Source: a virus
Reading direction: 5' to 3' (one strand)
Virus record (IMG/VR): IMGVR_UViG_3300044957_000558
Span: 1 to 27,142 of that record
DNA length: 27,142 bases
Notes under the pieces: model-generated
Database searches by the model: none
The model's input: the letters and a program-made list of their open reading frames with translations, nothing else
Told to the model about the DNA's origin: nothing
In this document: positions 13,424 through 27,086 of the stretch, in pieces
How the letters are laid out: every line of letters begins with the position of its first letter
How positions within the stretch are numbered: the stretch's first letter is position 1
Program-made: the position numbers and the translations under genes

Positions 13424-15448
13424 ATGTTAGAATTCGTAGATGGTGATGATAAAGGAAAAAAGAAGTCTGATGGTCAGACTACTGTATTAGACAATTTTAG
13501 TAAAGACCTTAATAAATTAGCCGAAGAAGGTAAGTTAGATCCTGTTATTGGGCGAAAAAAAGAAATTATTAGAATTGCCCAAATTCTCTCAAGAAGGAAG
13601 AAAAATAACCCAATAATCATTGGTGAACCTGGTGCAGGAAAAACTGCAATTGTTGAGGGTTTAGCAATGATGATACATAATGGTGAATGCCCTAAAAACT
13701 TGATGGATAAAAGAATTTTAGATTTAGATATTAATTCTTTAGTTGCTGGTACCAAATATCGAGGTCAATTCGAGGAACGAATGAAAGTTATTATTGAGGA
13801 ATTACAAACTAATCCGAATATAATTATTTTTATCGATGAAATTCATACTATGGTGGGTGCTGGTAATAGTTCAGGTTCTTTAGACGCATCCAACATTTTA
13901 AAACCCGCACTTTCTCGAGGTGAAATTCAGTGTATTGGAGCGACAACATTAGATGAGTATAGAAAAAGTTTTGAAAAAGATGGGGCATTAGAAAGAAGAT
14001 TTCAAAAAATAATTGTAGACCCTTCTTCAAAAGAAGAAACTTTAGAAATATTAAAATTAAGTAAGTCAAAATACGAAGAGCACCACAAAGTAACTTATGA
14101 TGACAATACCTTAAAGTTATTTGTTGAATTAGCAGATCGTTACGTCACGGATAGAGAGTTTCCTGATAAAGCATTTGATATATTAGATGAGGTTGGGTCA
14201 AGAATGCAAATTGATATTAAACTTCCTGATGAAATTGAAGATTTAAAAACTCAGGCTTCTGATATTAGAAAAGAAAAAATGGAAGTCATAAAAAAACAGA
14301 AATACGAATTAGCTGCCGAGTTAAGAGACAAAGAGCGGTTGATTTTAGGTAAACTTGAGGAAGAAAAAAAGAAATTCGAGGAGTTTTTAAAAAGTAGTAA
14401 AAGACCCATACCGGAAGATTTGGTTTATGAAGTGGTATCAAATATGACAAAAATTCCTGTGTCAAAAATCAATGTAGATGAAAAAGCAGCATTGATTAAT
14501 TTGGCCGAAAATTTGAATTCTAAAGTCATCGGTCAAGAAGATGCCGTAATTAAAATAGCAAAATCAATAAGAAGAAATAGAATTGGAATTAAAGACCCCA
14601 ATAAACCAATCGGATCATTTATCTTTTTAGGGTCTACAGGTGTTGGTAAAACTTTTTTGGCAAAACAATTAGCAAAAGTGATTTTTGGTAGTGAAGATAG
14701 TTTAATTAGAGTTGATATGAGTGAATATCAAGAAAAACATACAATTTCAAGACTAATAGGTTCTCCTCCAGGATATGTAGGTCATGAGGAAGGTGGTCAA
14801 TTAACTGAACAAGTGAAAAACAAACCATATTCGGTGATTCTTTTTGATGAAATCGAAAAGGCTCATAAGGATATTTTTTCAACACTTCTTCAAATGTTAG
14901 ATGACGGACATGTAACCGATGCTTTAGCTAGAAAAATTAATTTCAAAAATTGTTTAATCATTATGACTTCTAATATTGGAGTTAAGAAATTTCAAGATTT
15001 TGGAACTGGTGTTGGATTTAAAACAAATTCAAGTTCTGCAGTCGCAGAAGAACAAAAAAGAGATGTTTTGAAAAAAGAATTAAGTAAGTTTTTCGCACCT
15101 GAGTTTTTAAATCGAGTTGATGATGTAGTCATTTTTAATTCTTTATTAAAAGAGCATATTGACAAAATTACTAAGCTTGAAATTGAGATTTTGTTAAAAC
15201 GTGTCAAATCTAAAAACTATCATTTTACATATGGTGATGAAGTAGTTGATCTAATATCTAAAGTTGGTTTTGATGAAACATATGGTGCAAGACCAATTAA
15301 AAGAGCGATCCAAGAAAAAATTGAGGACTATATCTCTGAAAAAATTCTTATGGATGAAATTGTTGAGGGTAATACATATAATTTAATTGTTGAGGGTGAA
15401 AATATTTTAATAGAAAACCCCAAAAGAAGAATAAAAAAGAAAGAATAA
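13424..15448 (+). CDS. ClpC-like AAA+ unfoldase lacking the N-terminal domain
   Basis: This 674-residue protein has two AAA+ modules. D1 has Walker A GEPGAGKT (67-74), pore loop KYRG (111-114), Walker B IIFIDEIH (134-141) and arginine fingers near R191/R192. D2 has Walker A GSTGVGKT (403-410), pore loop GYVG (450-453), Walker B VILFDEIEKAH (471-481) and sensor TSNIG (515-519). Between them a UVR-type stretch, YELAAELRDKERL (about 294-306), marks ClpC rather than ClpA/ClpB, and there is no long ClpB middle domain. A GVGF loop at 529-532 matches the ClpP-docking loop. The roughly 150-residue adaptor-binding N-domain of host ClpC is missing; D1 begins about residue 20. It probably feeds substrates into host ClpP with altered specificity. 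The peptidase gene follows 47 bases later. Confidence 0.9.
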   Translation: MLEFVDGDDKGKKKSDGQTTVLDNFSKDLNKLAEEGKLDPVIGRKKEIIRIAQILSRRKKNNPIIIGEPGAGKTAIVEGLAMMIHNGECPKNLMDKRILDLDINSLVAGTKYRGQFEERMKVIIEELQTNPNIIIFIDEIHTMVGAGNSSGSLDASNILKPALSRGEIQCIGATTLDEYRKSFEKDGALERRFQKIIVDPSSKEETLEILKLSKSKYEEHHKVTYDDNTLKLFVELADRYVTDREFPDKAFDILDEVGSRMQIDIKLPDEIEDLKTQASDIRKEKMEVIKKQKYELAAELRDKERLILGKLEEEKKKFEEFLKSSKRPIPEDLVYEVVSNMTKIPVSKINVDEKAALINLAENLNSKVIGQEDAVIKIAKSIRRNRIGIKDPNKPIGSFIFLGSTGVGKTFLAKQLAKVIFGSEDSLIRVDMSEYQEKHTISRLIGSPPGYVGHEEGGQLTEQVKNKPYSVILFDEIEKAHKDIFSTLLQMLDDGHVTDALARKINFKNCLIIMTSNIGVKKFQDFGTGVGFKTNSSSAVAEEQKRDVLKKELSKFFAPEFLNRVDDVVIFNSLLKEHIDKITKLEIEILLKRVKSKNYHFTYGDEVVDLISKVGFDETYGARPIKRAIQEKIEDYISEKILMDEIVEGNTYNLIVEGENILIENPKRRIKKKE

Positions 15449-15495: not shown

Positions 15496-16515
15496 ATGGA
15501 TCTAAATAAATTTAAAGAACTATTATCCATACCTTCGAAAACTTATCAAGAAGATAAGATGGTCGAATTTTTGACTAATTATCTAACCACAGAAGGATAT
15601 GACTGGTATCGTGATTATCACAACAATATATACGTGACTAAAGGAACATTGGATGAAGGTGAATTTTACCCAATGTTTATTTCTCATACCGACACGGTTC
15701 ATAATATTGTAGATAAGATTGTTGTAAAAGAAGAACTTTTGGTTCGTCTATACACATTCGGAAAAGACTTTGGTTCAAATCAAGTTGATTGTTTAAAAGC
15801 ATATACTCCTGATGGAAAACCTACTGGCATTGGTGGAGATGATAAATGTGGTATTTTCATCTGTTTAGAATTACTTAAACAATTAAATAAAGTAAAAGTT
15901 GCATTTTTTGTTTCAGAAGAAACTGGATGTCATGGATCAAGAAACTTGGATAAGGACTTTTTAAAAGATGTTGGATATTGCACCCAATATGATGCCCCTG
16001 GTGATCACTTGATTTCTTATAGTTGTTCAGGAACGGTATTGTTTGATAAGAATGGTGAGTTTTTTCCATTGGCGTTACAAGCTATCTCAGAGGGGTTCAA
16101 AAATGAAATGATGGTTCAATCTCACCCTTACACCGATATTATGATGGTTAAACAATATAGTGATATTTCTTGTATCAATATGTCATGTGGTTATTATAAC
16201 ATGCACACGTCAAATGAGTTTGTTTGTATTTCTGATGTTGAAAGGGCAATTATTGCAGGAAAAAACATGGTTGATAAATTGGGTTTAAAAAAATACGAAT
16301 TCAAAGAGGAAATTAGACCTCAGCCAAGCATTTTTGATTTCCAAGATGATAAACCTTTTTATGATGAAGTTCATCAATTATCTACAGTTGATATAATAGA
16401 AGAAAAAAATGGTATTATAATTTGTGATTTTTATGATGAAAACCAACTTTATATTGACGATGAAGATGGATATAAATTATATGAGATACTAAAATACCGT
16501 TATTCTTTAGATTAG
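15496..16515 (+). CDS. M20-family metallopeptidase, PepT-like aminopeptidase
   Basis: This 339-residue protein has the di-zinc ligand set of M20 peptidases. The residues are H64 and D66 in FISHTDTVH, D115/D116 in GIGGDDKCG, the catalytic E141 and bridging E142 in SEETGCHGS, D166 in QYDAPGD and H237 in NMHTSNE. The pattern resembles PepT (tripeptide aminopeptidase, about 410 residues). The protein is shorter, so the lid or dimerisation domain seems reduced. It would hydrolyse short peptides in the cytoplasm. It lies directly after the ClpC-like gene and on the same strand, suggesting that peptides released by Clp proteolysis are turned into free amino acids for phage protein synthesis. Other M20 substrates (acylated amino acids) cannot be excluded. 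Confidence 0.82.
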   Translation: MDLNKFKELLSIPSKTYQEDKMVEFLTNYLTTEGYDWYRDYHNNIYVTKGTLDEGEFYPMFISHTDTVHNIVDKIVVKEELLVRLYTFGKDFGSNQVDCLKAYTPDGKPTGIGGDDKCGIFICLELLKQLNKVKVAFFVSEETGCHGSRNLDKDFLKDVGYCTQYDAPGDHLISYSCSGTVLFDKNGEFFPLALQAISEGFKNEMMVQSHPYTDIMMVKQYSDISCINMSCGYYNMHTSNEFVCISDVERAIIAGKNMVDKLGLKKYEFKEEIRPQPSIFDFQDDKPFYDEVHQLSTVDIIEEKNGIIICDFYDENQLYIDDEDGYKLYEILKYRYSLD

Positions 16516-17666: not shown

Positions 17667-17697
17667 TTGTCAAAGTGAAATCTTTGTATTATATTTG
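17667..17697 (+). promoter_or_regulatory. Host-type promoter of the tmRNA
   Basis: TTG at 17667-17669 is followed, exactly 20 bases later, by TATATTTG at 17690-17697. This matches the Bacteroidota TTG-N20-TAnnTTTG promoter. The tmRNA 5' end lies 23 bases after the -7 element, leaving a short leader to be processed. Confidence 0.75.
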
Positions 17698-17719: not shown

Positions 17720-18124
17720 GGGCCCGACTTGGATTTGACAGGCGTTGGTTGGATAAAAGAAGCATGCCGAGACTGAGATAATCTCGTTAAAAACTGACTC
17801 ACAAAAACAACTGGCAATGTGCTAAACAAAATGGAAACTCTTGGTTTACTAAGAGGTTCTGAAGTTACTGTAGCTTAAGAAGTTTACGGAAACGGGAGCC
17901 GGTTCACATACGCTTAGCAACAGAAGTGATAAAAGTGGATTACCATTAAACTATAAATTGAATGGTCCATTGGTTGTTAGTTTACGATGGTGAAGAACAA
18001 ACTAACCTTGTTTTTGATCAAGTTAAAATCAAATATTTTGGGGTATTAGAAAATACCAACCTAAGCATGTAGGTGTCTTTTAAACAAGACGAGCTGGACG
18101 AGATTTCGATTATCTCCGGGTCCA
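17720..18124 (+). ncRNA. ssrA: Transfer-messenger RNA (tmRNA)
   Basis: The ends form the tRNA-like domain. The 5' GGGCCCG pairs with 3' CGGGTCC plus discriminator A at 18124, with a G3-U70 wobble as required for alanylation. A T-arm of GAGAT-TTCGATT-ATCTC precedes the 3' strand. The D-loop analogue GGATTTGACAGG and the AGCATGCCGAG segment are typical. The likely resume codon is GGC at 17813, giving a 21-residue tag (GNVLNKMETL...EVTVA) that ends at the TAA at 17876. Bacteroidota tags normally also begin with G but are short and end in ALAA, so this tag is long and has TVA instead. No CCA is encoded. The tmRNA rescues stalled ribosomes and marks the product for Clp proteolysis. The 405-base length is normal. 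Confidence 0.93.
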
Positions 18125-18132
18125 CACTAAAC

Positions 18133-18165
18133 AATCCCATCATTTAATTATGGTGGGATTTTTTT
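18133..18165 (+). terminator. Rho-independent terminator of the tmRNA
   Basis: AATCCCATCAT pairs with ATGGTGGGATT (one G-T pair) around a 6-base loop and is followed by seven T. Confidence 0.85.
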
Positions 18166-18210
18166 ATGCGTTAAAATTATTGTGTATTTGGTTGTGATTT
18201 TTTTAAGCAC

Positions 18211-18233
18211 AAAAAAAGGGACTAATTGTCCCT
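18211..18233 (-). terminator. Rho-independent terminator of the large ncRNA
   Basis: On the minus strand AGGGAC-AATTA-GTCCCT is followed by seven T. It faces the tmRNA terminator and closes the leftward RNA described at 18211-19174. Confidence 0.8.
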
Positions 18234-19143
18234 AATATTTTACCGGTGGGTCCATTAAAAAGAAACGCTGAGATTACACGTTTTTGTGAGAACCTTTAGA
18301 GTGATTATTGTTTCTACTCTTATCCACTTTCTTTTGGAAAGTATTTCTCATTGCCGATTGGTTAGACCAATCACTCCTTGACGATATAACTACTCTCCTA
18401 TTACTTAACTCTCTTTGAGGATGCCTCCCCAACTCGTCCTTGCAGGATTAGAGGTTTTTGGTAGAAATACACTCGGTCTTGGGAACCTAATGTGCCACGG
18501 ACAATCCGTGACTAAGTGGGCAACTTCCGTTATACCGTGACAGACACTTTTCCTTATTTTATTAATACAATAGTCATAAGTTTGTGTCGTGGATTATCGA
18601 AGTAGTGGTCTGCCAACCGAGCCAACCCATATTTTGAACGAGTCGATACTCAACTACTCCATGAAATGTCCCCATTTCCATACTTCAAGATTACTTCGAG
18701 ACTAACCCCTTGGTAGAAGTTCGTCAAGGTTAATAACGGCACCACCCGTTTTTTAACATACCTTTCGGTTTTAAATAACCTTTGATATTGGAACACGCAA
18801 TAATGAAATTGGATAATTTCATGTTTCGCAAATATTCCTACGGGTTATTCCTATTGGTGTTCCCACCTCAATTTGACGACCCACATCGCCAAATCATCTA
18901 ATCACGTTCCCTACAGCGTTGCCCTCGGTAGTAAAGATTAAACGGTATCCCGCTTGTATACTCGAGCTCCAAAAAGAAGCCGCAAATCATCTAACACAAA
19001 TGACTCACTTTATCCTACTTTCGTAGTTTATTTTAATGGACTATATACGGCCCAATATCTTAATCAATCAAAGATGGAAATTTCATTCCAATTACTTGTC
19101 AAAGAATCTGACAAAACTTATCTTGAACGGATAATCTATTTTT

Positions 19144-19153
19144 TTCAAAGAAC
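19144..19153 (-). promoter_or_regulatory. boxA-like element at the start of the large ncRNA
   Basis: The minus strand reads GTTCTTTGAA about 20-30 bases downstream of the inferred start of the large ncRNA. Confidence 0.4.
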
Positions 19154-19179
19154 GTTTCGGACTTTTCCGATTTGTTTTA

Positions 19180-19211
19180 CAAAGTTAAGAATAATTTTTT
19201 TATTTCTCAAA
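19180..19211 (-). promoter_or_regulatory. Promoter of the large ncRNA (proximal)
   Basis: On the minus strand TTTG (19208-19211) and TAACTTTG (19180-19187) are separated by exactly 20 bases. Confidence 0.72.
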
Positions 19212-19273
19212 TTTTTCTTTCACTTTTTTTTTCGAGATTTGTATCTTAATCGTTTCCCATCTCAATTGTTTTA

Positions 19274-19304
19274 CAAAGTTAAGACATTTATTTTGATCTG
19301 TCAA
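19274..19304 (-). promoter_or_regulatory. Promoter of the large ncRNA (distal)
   Basis: On the minus strand TTG (19302-19304) and TAACTTTG (19274-19281) are separated by 20 bases. The spacer contains AGATCAAAATAA, nearly the same as in the promoters at 25304 and 25705. The two TAACTTTGTAAAACAA copies 94 bases apart make tandem promoters. Confidence 0.68.
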
Positions 19305-19322
19305 GTACTTTGTGAACTTTTT

Positions 19323-19469
19323 TTAATTTTTTTCTACATAAACTTTATGAGTTTCGTAATATTTTGCTCTAAGTGTTGCATATACTTGACTTGGTGTGTG
19401 GTATTTTTTGCCGTTTGAGTCAAAATAATAAAAAATCTCATAAGATTCGATTGTTTGATCTTCACTCAT
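19323..19469 (-). CDS. Small hypothetical protein, 48 residues
   Basis: The frame starts ATG at 19469 and ends TAA at 19323. The product is MSEDQTIESYEIFYYFDSNG then KKYHTPSQVYATLRAKYYE and a short Lys-rich end. It is aromatic-rich, acidic then basic, with no membrane segment. The composition and alternating pattern look like a real small protein rather than chance. It sits between the M15 peptidase gene and the ncRNA promoters. A TATTTAT-like element is about 75 bases upstream (near 19545). No family is recognised. Confidence 0.5.
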   Translation of the reverse strand: MSEDQTIESYEIFYYFDSNGKKYHTPSQVYATLRAKYYETHKVYVEKN

Positions 19470-25303: not shown

Positions 25304-25333
25304 CAAAGATAAGTAATTATTTTAATCTACAAA
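25304..25333 (-). promoter_or_regulatory. Host-type promoter of the zinc-ribbon-like gene
   Basis: On the minus strand TTTG (25330-25333) and TATCTTTG (25304-25311) are 18 bases apart. The spacer begins TAGATTAAAATAA, identical to that of the promoter at 25705. Confidence 0.6.
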
Positions 25334-25354: not shown

Positions 25355-25425
25355 CGGTCTATACCAGTTACGCTCCGAGGGCTTGTCCGTGACAGGGACA
25401 AATGTTACTATTACACCAATAGACC
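25355..25425 (-). tRNA. tRNA-Asp(GTC)-like gene with an aberrant T-arm
   Basis: The acceptor stem GGTCTAT/ATAGACC pairs perfectly with discriminator G. The D-stem GTGT/ACAT has a 7-base loop, and the anticodon stem TGTCC/GGACA has loop CTGTCAC, anticodon GTC (Asp). The expected T-arm CTCGG-AGCGTAA-CTGGT has one mismatch and two G-T pairs and lacks the TTCRA loop, so the gene may be decaying or unusual. Total length is 71 bases, without CCA. Confidence 0.6.
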
Positions 25426-25432
25426 AATTTTG

Positions 25433-25513
25433 TACTGACGGTTGGATTCGAACCAACGTTTTCAACTTACCGCTACAGGTATGGACGATATAAGCGTCCA
25501 CTGGTACGTCAGC
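25433..25513 (-). tRNA. tRNA-like element without a D-arm, possible anticodon TAT
   Basis: The acceptor stem GCTGACG/CGTCAGT has seven pairs (one G-T), with discriminator A. The T-arm GTTGG-TTCGAAT-CCAAC is canonical. A 5-pair stem GGACG/CGTCC with the 7-base loop CTTATAT looks like the anticodon arm, giving TAT (Ile, AUA). Only seven bases separate the acceptor from this stem, so no D-arm fits. The variable region is long, with TACC-TGTAGC-GGTA. Length is 81 bases. Function is uncertain. Confidence 0.5.
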
Positions 25514-25514
25514 A

Positions 25515-25698
25515 TTTTAGTTTCGACCTTTTTTGTGATTTAGTAGTTGACTCACACTGTCGTTTCACCATCTTGAACCAACTGGTTGATGTACTTTACG
25601 AGTTTCCCCTTGCTTACAACCACAATATCTTAAATCAAAGAACTTTCTTTCATTTTGTGTGGGGGTGAGTCCACCATCACATTTTCTCACCCCCGTTT
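25515..25698 (-). other. Unassigned non-coding leader between promoter and tRNA-like genes
   Basis: This is transcribed leftward from the promoter at 25705. It starts with a 9-pair hairpin, GGGGGTGAG/CTCACCCCC (25661-25694). A boxA-like GTTCTTTGAT follows at 25634-25643. About 80 bases bounded by a 7-pair GTGGTTG/CAACTAC stem then come before the tRNA-like genes. The last part has tRNA-like length but I cannot fold D-, anticodon- and T-arms in it. Confidence 0.4.
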
Positions 25699-25704
25699 CT
25701 TTTA

Positions 25705-25736
25705 CAAATGTAAGAACTTTATTTTAATCTACCAAA
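25705..25736 (-). promoter_or_regulatory. Host-type promoter of the tRNA-like transcript
   Basis: On the minus strand TTTG (25733-25736) and TACATTTG (25705-25712) are exactly 20 bases apart. The spacer GTAGATTAAAATAA is shared with the promoter at 25304. Confidence 0.65.
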
Positions 25737-25770
25737 CACTTTGTAAAATATTTTTTATTTTTTTTTTCTG

Positions 25771-25819
25771 TACTCGGGGCGGGAATAGAACCCGCACGGG
25801 CAAATGCCCACAGGATTTT
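25771..25819 (-). tRNA. 3' half of tRNA-Leu(UAA) (3' exon behind a group I intron)
   Basis: Starting AAAATCCTG, this reads as positions 35 onward of tRNA-Leu(UAA). It holds the 3' anticodon strand, a variable arm GGGC-ATTT-GCCC, a canonical T-arm GCGGG-TTCTATT-CCCGC, the acceptor strand CCCGAGT and discriminator A. It joins the group I intron at the same site as in cyanobacterial tRNA-Leu introns. A matching 5' half (acceptor ACTCGGG, anticodon strand CAGGA) is not found in the 150 bases upstream. Confidence 0.7.
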
Positions 25820-26027
25820 CTTACCACTATAGTTTTCACTACCAACCAATTTGTTGTTTGTGGTCTGGACTATACCTTAACCATATCTTTTTAGACTTAG
25901 GTTCTCCGTGTTTAGTCTCTACACCTTCCTCATTTCTGAAGCTTGGCTCGGTATTCCCATCTCAAAGGGTTCACCGAATTTACGGAGTTCTACTCAGAGA
26001 GTTTCCCCTCTGGCACTCATATTTTTA
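25820..26027 (-). ncRNA. Group I intron (catalytic core complete)
   Basis: All four conserved core elements are present in order on the minus strand. P is AAATTCGGTGAACCC (25967-25981), Q is AATACCGAGCCAAGC (25941-25955), R is AGAGACTAAACACGG (25906-25920) and S is AAGGTATAGTCC (25867-25878). Pairings P3 (CTCCGT/ACGGAG), P4 (TTCGGT/ACCGAG) and P7 (GACTA/TAGTC) all form. P9 is TAGT-GAAA-ACTA. The last intron base is G at 25820, before AAAATCC. The sequence GGAAGGTG just before R and the insertion site recall the Anabaena tRNA-Leu intron. No homing endonuclease frame is inside. The 5' boundary near 26027 is approximate, as P1 pairing is only partly convincing. Confidence 0.82.
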
Positions 26028-26112
26028 CCTCGGTAGTTATCTGTGTATGAATGATAATTAGGACAAAGGATTTGGAGATTCTCAATCCTATTATCATATT
26101 TATATAACTCCA
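26028..26112. other. Non-coding stretch upstream of the group I intron
   Basis: No gene is seen. It holds an imperfect hairpin AGGATTTGGAG/CTCAATCCT near 26068-26090. A tRNA 5' half would be expected here, but no acceptor strand complementary to CCCGAGT is present. Confidence 0.5.
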
Positions 26113-26612: not shown

Positions 26613-27023
26613 TTAACCTTGATTTAAAATATATTCTCTGATTGTATCTGGTGATGCTTCACCAATTGAACAAGCAAAATAACCATCAGACCAAAAAGTT
26701 TTTTCTAACCAAAATTCTTGACTTAAAACATCAGAATACAAAGACCAAATTTGTTTTGTTGATTCTTGTTTTAATTTACGAACAATTGATGAAACCGACA
26801 AACGAGGAATATATCTAATTAAAAAATGAATGTGATTAATATCTGATTCCATAACCTCAATATTAAAATCTGAATTGTTCGTAATATTTTCCAATATGGT
26901 TTTCATATCTTCATTTAAATTACCCATAAGTAAAGGTTTACGATATTTACAAACAAATATTAAATGAATTTTTAAATAATGTTTTGAACGATTTGTTGTA
27001 ATGTAATTTGATTTTTTTGACAT
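26613..27023 (-). CDS. tnpA: IS200/IS605-type Y1 transposase TnpA (REP-associated or IS200-like)
   Basis: This 136-residue protein has the HUH motif as HIH (H64-I-H66 in DINHIHFLIRYIP) and the catalytic tyrosine Y131 in TIREYILNQG. The N-terminal strand SKHYLKIHLIFVCKYRKPLL is typical. TnpA nicks and joins single-stranded DNA at hairpin ends, forming a transient 5'-phosphotyrosine. Length fits the family (130-155). I chose ATG 27023 because the longer frame to 27062 would need a TTG start and a leader unlike the family. No TnpB follows, so it is an IS200-type lone transposase. Imperfect ACAGAAT/ATTCTGT repeats lie upstream near 27056-27086 and may belong to the element's end. Confidence 0.88.
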   Translation of the reverse strand: MSKKSNYITTNRSKHYLKIHLIFVCKYRKPLLMGNLNEDMKTILENITNNSDFNIEVMESDINHIHFLIRYIPRLSVSSIVRKLKQESTKQIWSLYSDVLSQEFWLEKTFWSDGYFACSIGEASPDTIREYILNQG

Positions 27024-27055
27024 AGTAAAGAATTTTTGTAAATATGTTTTCACAG

Positions 27056-27086
27056 AATACAAACATTTTACAAAAATTCTGTCTTT
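27056..27086. repeat. Inverted repeat upstream of tnpA, possible IS end hairpin
   Basis: ACAGAAT and ATTCTGT flank a 17-base AT-rich loop about 35 bases upstream of the TnpA start. Subterminal hairpins of this kind are recognised by Y1 transposases. The true element ends are not defined here. Confidence 0.4.

Follow-up and report, generated by a model that had tools for sequence, protein, structure and literature searches.

The window analysed here, a 27,142-nt stretch of the virus record IMGVR_UViG_3300044957_000558 (positions 1 to 27,142), very probably encodes a non-coding, phage-borne GOLLD RNA on its minus strand between positions 18,210 and 19,173. This RNA is part of a gene neighbourhood conserved in a group of phages, which comprises genes for a Clp unfoldase and a peptidase, a tmRNA with a long tag and, convergent to the tmRNA, GOLLD. 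The tail-to-tail arrangement of GOLLD and a long-tag tmRNA behind unfolding and peptide-cutting genes looks new, since no description of a GOLLD and tmRNA pairing was found in the literature searched, most subscription papers lying outside that search. The setting is that of a GOLLD phage, namely a virus record with terminase and portal genes, and this 27-kb fragment probably derives from a large tailed phage of Bacteroidota. The host is suggested by the type of promoter found in the window and by the closest full-length relatives of the terminase, which belong to Flavobacterium phages (27% identity).

Identity, extent and transcription signals of the GOLLD RNA

An Rfam search matched RF02032 (GOLLD) at 18661-18265 of the minus strand with 298.3 bits (E 1.1e-84) over the complete model, the gathering threshold being 150 bits. 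The Rfam model spans the 3' domain alone, and the remainder of the gene was delimited by other means, as given below with the basis of each feature.

18210..19173, minus strand: full-length GOLLD gene of about 960 nt, beginning at the predicted transcription start and closing with the T run of the terminator
18662..19172, minus strand: GOLLD 5' domain, outside the Rfam model (nhmmer, covariation, blastn)
18265..18661, minus strand: GOLLD 3' domain (RF02032 model positions 1-416, 298.3 bits)
18548..18584, minus strand: A/U-rich variable linker of about 37 nt in the 3' domain (Rfam variable region, unpaired in the consensus)
18351..18523, minus strand: candidate pseudoknot-like contact of UUGC (18523-18520) with GCAA (18354-18351) (covariation)
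19274..19304, minus strand: distal promoter, TTGACAG...TAACTTTG (TTG spacing, match to relatives)
19180..19210, minus strand: proximal promoter, TTG-N20-TAACTTTG (TTG spacing, position in relatives)
18210..18233, minus strand: intrinsic terminator of GOLLD, AGGGACAATTAGTCCCT followed by TTTTTT

The initial annotation, made from the letters alone, had described 18,211-19,305 as a structured non-coding RNA with tandem promoters and its own terminator, and this description was borne out. No credible ORF runs across the region, as had been claimed, and a coding function was accordingly rejected; the sole listed ORF that enters it (18954-19418, plus strand, TTG start) is of low complexity. The transcript length of about 960 nt proposed there likewise agrees with the extent found by sequence.

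The suggestion that the RNA might be neither GOLLD nor ROOL, and thus represent a new giant RNA class, did not hold. The Rfam search that had been put forward as the check on this idea returned a strong match to the full GOLLD model, by which the new class was rejected. A new class, or membership in ROOL, OLE, HEARO or raiA instead of GOLLD, is extremely improbable in view of the complete analysis. It could draw on the 5' half of about 510 nt, which has no above-threshold Rfam match and therefore leaves about half of the RNA outside any curated model. However, the 3' half matches GOLLD at twice the gathering score, and equivalents of this very 5' half were found joined to GOLLD 3' domains in most of the relatives described in the next section. 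Moreover, neither ROOL, which is likewise a phage-associated giant RNA forming cages (PMC12286853), nor OLE, HEARO or raiA matched the window at the gathering threshold, and no other large-RNA family was listed near the gene even at E-values up to 1. Weak matches to SNOR75, ncr1575 and rimP near the gene were far under threshold and were dismissed as chance.

The two TAACTTTG boxes read as promoters in the initial annotation lie at 19281-19274 and 19187-19180, both on the minus strand and each with a TTG about 20 nt upstream, which is the right distance. As a bare word TAACTTTG is not rarer than expected by chance in the AT-rich window (3 found versus 2.4 expected), so that its count was rejected as promoter evidence, and position and TTG spacing were used instead. 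The TTG/TAnnTTTG arrangement is a known form of Bacteroidota promoter. Of 61 relatives, 58 have such a box no more than 200 nt ahead of the conserved RNA start, and in most of them it ends a few bases before that start; correspondingly, the 5' end of full-length GOLLD is conserved in most relatives a few nucleotides past the proximal TAACTTTG. In sequence, the distal copy comes very close to the promoter that is proximal in relatives such as L007. Within the window, the distal and proximal copies lie in a direct repeat of 59 nt with 75% identity, and on both counts the tandem promoters look like the product of a local duplication. The terminator noticed earlier was found as well, consisting of a 6-bp stem (18233-18217) and a T run on the minus strand (18233-18210 in all). 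Two further TTG/TAnnTTTG promoter-like sites resembling those of GOLLD occur at 25332 and 25735 on the same strand, around a tRNA stretch.

Conserved structure and predicted assembly

GOLLD loci were gathered from virus contigs by means of two patterns taken from the 3' domain, which was present in 146 loci (the window counted once). Among 100 distinct GOLLD sequences with enough upstream DNA, picked without reference to the 5' region, 77 carried a match to the 5' region of the window (nhmmer), and part of the 5' domain also matched two huge-phage records in blastn. In an alignment of 40 sequences with a mean identity of 72%, the consensus structure comprises 239 pairs, 96.7% of them standard, a percentage favoured by construction because the consensus was derived from the same alignment. 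The stronger argument for the structure is the number of pairs with double-sided changes, which amounts to 147 as against 37-65 when the partners are slid by 1-3 columns; the covariation among homologues envisaged in the initial annotation is thus present. The helices of the 5' domain covary across 19048-18663 in the same way as those of the 3' domain, and most of them close inside the 5' domain.

Hairpins with GNRA loops, also pointed out earlier, are present on the minus strand (CUAC-GAAA-GUAG, GUG-GGAA-CAC and ACC-GAAA-GGU). The internal 12-mer repeat, which is separate from the promoter repeat, fared differently: CAAATCATCTAA does occur at 18890 and 18983, but it is found in duplicate in only 3 of the 40 aligned sequences, the window among them, so that it was rejected as a conserved feature and is probably incidental.

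The contact between 18523-18520 and 18354-18351 is non-nested and was the top candidate of its kind among the unpaired columns, with 99% standard pairs over the 40 sequences and double-sided changes in three of its four pairs. Possibly it corresponds to a pseudoknot already known from GOLLD. A scan of adjacent unpaired columns for symmetric kissing-loop covariation, as in GOLLD L21a, gave no candidate within the cut-offs, a result that neither supports nor excludes the kissing-loop bridges of GOLLD. In one locus of 14,520 bases (L081), two GOLLD copies of equal score lie on opposite strands of a single contig, a doubling that may be an assembly artefact.

The identity, extent, conserved structure and promoter/terminator anatomy of the RNA are established by sequence analysis; as to its transcription, assembly and cargo, we infer the following course. 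A host-type RNA polymerase would transcribe the gene from the tandem TTG/TAnnTTTG promoters to the intrinsic terminator. The product, a non-coding transcript about 960 nt long and divided into a 5' and a 3' domain, would self-assemble in the infected cell into a hollow, multimeric RNA cage enclosing the variable linker. The solved GOLLD RNA env-38, of 833 nt, assembles as a 14-mer cage: its 5' domains form caps, its 3' domains form rings and the linker is placed inside (PMC12286853). Kissing loops and A-minor contacts hold this homo-14-mer together. The RNA of the window resembles env-38 in its full 3' domain, its separate 5' domain (in GOLLD the less conserved of the two) and its variable linker, in being phage-encoded and in exceeding 800 nt (PMC12286853). 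By homology, it is likely to form a cage too, this being the natural expectation from the two-domain plan and from a linker of similar size that is devoid of tRNA (none was found inside 18548-18584). It differs from env-38 in its 5' domain of about 510 nt versus 420, the two being compared by length alone, and from env-38 and other known GOLLD RNAs in its tandem promoters of Bacteroidota type and in the convergent tmRNA that takes the place of a tRNA array.

GOLLD expression goes up during phage lysis and GOLLD pull-downs contained ribosomes (PMC12286853). The leading guess as to cargo, which we offer tentatively and as something rather less probable than its opposite, is that the cage might help the phage to control translation, for instance as a container for molecules related to ribosomes or tRNAs. 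At the least, the window provides one clear additional GOLLD member, together with an alignment of the 5' domain omitted by Rfam.

The genes around GOLLD and the meaning of their association

The tmRNA that the initial annotation had placed beside the RNA is indeed there, 140 bp from GOLLD and tail-to-tail with it, and two protein genes precede it on the same strand.

13424..15448, plus strand: gene for a ClpC-like AAA+ unfoldase with the ClpP-binding loop GVGF (phrog_4871, E 2e-235)
15496..16515, plus strand: gene for an M42/M20-like peptidase (phrog_4191, E 5e-39)
17667..17697, plus strand: tmRNA promoter of Bacteroidota type, TTG-N20-TATATTTG (TTG spacing)
17720..18127, plus strand: phage tmRNA gene (RF00023, 97.8 bits over the complete model, threshold 47)
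17813..17878, plus strand: tmRNA tag frame, GNVLNKMETLGLLRGSEVTVA and stop (conserved frame, pN/pS)
18133..18165, plus strand: terminator of the tmRNA gene

The tmRNA is of the one-piece type with tRNA-like ends, and its tag, GNVLNKMETLGLLRGSEVTVA, has 21 residues. A phage ssrA gene has been described for the methylophage Melnitz as well, and tmRNA occurs in about 2% of phage genomes (PMC9004378). The tmRNA of the window differs from others of phages in being one-piece with a long conserved tag, of 21-22 residues in its relatives, whereas the most frequent tmRNA tag length in a recent survey was 10 (PMC11915505). A related tag frame was found in all 45 full-length tmRNAs that had been collected without using the tag (that of the window included), and pN/pS is 0.40 in the frame, whereas shifting the frame gives 0.72 and 2.6. 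Purifying selection acts on the tag. The tag family, a set partly selected by the pattern itself, approximates to G[ND]V[LI].K[ML]...GL[ILV]R, with 21-22 residues and mostly VA at the end. This pattern had no match in 84,980 host genomes, in a type of scan that can miss diverged forms, and the tmRNA region had no blastn match among named phages. At another locus (L097, 8044-8414) a different phage tmRNA lies on the GOLLD strand, upstream of GOLLD, and carries a 23-residue tag, DEKSTMTYDDLMAFVGMDYAVAA; long tags may therefore have arisen more than once. Its length, conservation and phage specificity give the tmRNA tag an interest of its own, whether or not GOLLD is related to it.

The unfoldase matched the Pfam families AAA_2, AAA_lid_9 and ClpB_D2-small, with no Pfam match to a Clp N-domain, and the peptidase exceeded the cut-offs of Peptidase_M42 and M20. 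The [VIML]GF loop, which serves for docking on ClpP, is kept in all 85 readable Clp homologues. A Clp homologue was found in 87 of 141 tmRNA loci, always about 2-6 kb upstream of the tmRNA and sharing its strand, and the peptidase in 101 of the 141; both were absent from all 110 loci with GOLLD only. As ClpP is encoded in 7 and SmpB in 2 of 26 large records, the records without their own ClpP or SmpB would need the host proteins.

In 82 of the 83 loci that hold both RNAs, the tmRNA is downstream of GOLLD and convergent with it. This figure combines two approaches. Among the loci found through GOLLD, 50 (the window counted once) had a recognisable tmRNA, downstream and convergent in 49; taking the 40 non-redundant GOLLD sequences, a tmRNA was within the fetched stretch for 20. 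The second scan picked loci by the tmRNA tag, blind to GOLLD, and its 91 hits among the newly fetched loci all fell within a tmRNA. GOLLD was convergent in 33 of these and in no other arrangement (33/33 downstream and convergent); 15 lacked it although 4.5 kb or more was visible, and for 43 its position was out of view. Of the tag loci that did not show GOLLD, 50 were inspected over their whole records; GOLLD was found in 15 and not in the other 35, which may be fragments. The tag-locus records are interrelated, so that none of these counts represents independent events. GOLLD and tmRNA are about 0.1 kb apart at the closest and 3.4 kb at the widest, and the neighbouring genes p208 and p217 occur in only 11 of the 83 loci, meaning that the set of Clp, peptidase, tmRNA and GOLLD is kept while its flanks change.

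Other phages show GOLLD in different company. The Acinetobacter phages Herod and vB_AciJM_313 also possess the GOLLD 3' domain (225 and 207 bits), within tRNA clusters and with no above-threshold tmRNA in the whole record, and their 5' domain has no blastn match to that of the window. The huge metagenomic phages LR756502.1 and LR745206.1, in which both GOLLD domains match those of the window, encode a Clp protein of the same family (57% identity) about 2-6 kb from GOLLD; they have tRNAs and no above-threshold tmRNA, and their Clp gene is on the GOLLD strand, not on the opposite one as in the group of the window.

The association may be read in two ways. GOLLD could be a working part of a phage cassette for tagging and recycling, in which the phage tmRNA would put its own tag on nascent chains that have stalled, the Clp unfoldase of the phage would pass the tagged chains to ClpP, the peptidase would trim the products, and the GOLLD cage would store or protect an RNA or a ribosome component of the tagging route. 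We consider such a cassette unlikely, even though several observations argue for it: the orientation of the tmRNA (82/83) and of the upstream Clp gene (87/87), the ClpP loop retained throughout (85/85), the selection acting on a tag whose pattern is absent from the host genomes scanned, the persistence of the set beside varying flanks (p208 and p217 in 11/83) and the ClpP or SmpB genes of some records (7/26 and 2/26). Co-location is not function, however, and there are the 15 tag loci without GOLLD in at least 4.5 kb of visible sequence, the 35 of 50 whole records (possibly fragments) that show none, and the GOLLD RNAs found elsewhere without any cassette genes. On the other reading, to which we give slightly better than even chances, GOLLD and tmRNA adjoin only because a single phage lineage has both in its RNA-gene region, and they act independently of each other. 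This would agree with the GOLLD of Acinetobacter phages, located in tRNA clusters without tmRNA, and with the fact that GOLLD and tmRNA each have their own promoter and terminator. It accounts less well for the orientation and for the company of Clp and peptidase genes, which are unusually constant despite a divergence of up to 40% among the GOLLD sequences, the variable spacing and the changing other neighbours.

Shared ancestry could nonetheless be the source of the shared gene order. Given that GOLLD is maintained elsewhere in the absence of tmRNA and Clp partners, plain inheritance within a single phage lineage is ranked as more likely than a common function. Since many GOLLD RNAs, in Acinetobacter phages and in the 110 other loci, lack these partners nearby, tmRNA and Clp are not needed for GOLLD in general. 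In its widest form, the functional proposal would have a widespread group of Bacteroidota-type phages carry a dedicated set for taking over trans-translation, made up of a tmRNA with a phage-specific 21-22-residue degradation tag, a matching ClpC-like unfoldase docking on ClpP, a peptidase and a cooperating GOLLD cage that would hold, for example, ribosomes, tRNAs or tmRNA. We hold this to be doubtful; if true, it would provide the first functional context for GOLLD, an RNA whose cage structure is solved. A conserved link of GOLLD to tmRNA, Clp and peptidase would suggest a role in controlling translation and recycling protein during infection.

tRNA genes, intron and transposase in the window

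tRNA genes, near which GOLLD is often found, are located about 6-7 kb from the GOLLD gene of the window. They include two adjoining genes at 25355-25513 on the minus strand, scoring 31 and 33 bits in Rfam, for which ARAGORN reported tRNA-Ile(tat) only. A group I intron (25770-26040, minus strand, 53.3 bits) lies beside a sequence that reads as the 3' half of a tRNA whose variable arm is long, and a phage tRNA gene has probably been split here. The spurious ORFs at 25655-26061 of the plus strand are accounted for in this way. Near the end of the record, a gene for an IS200-type Y1 transposase occupies 26613-27062 of the minus strand.
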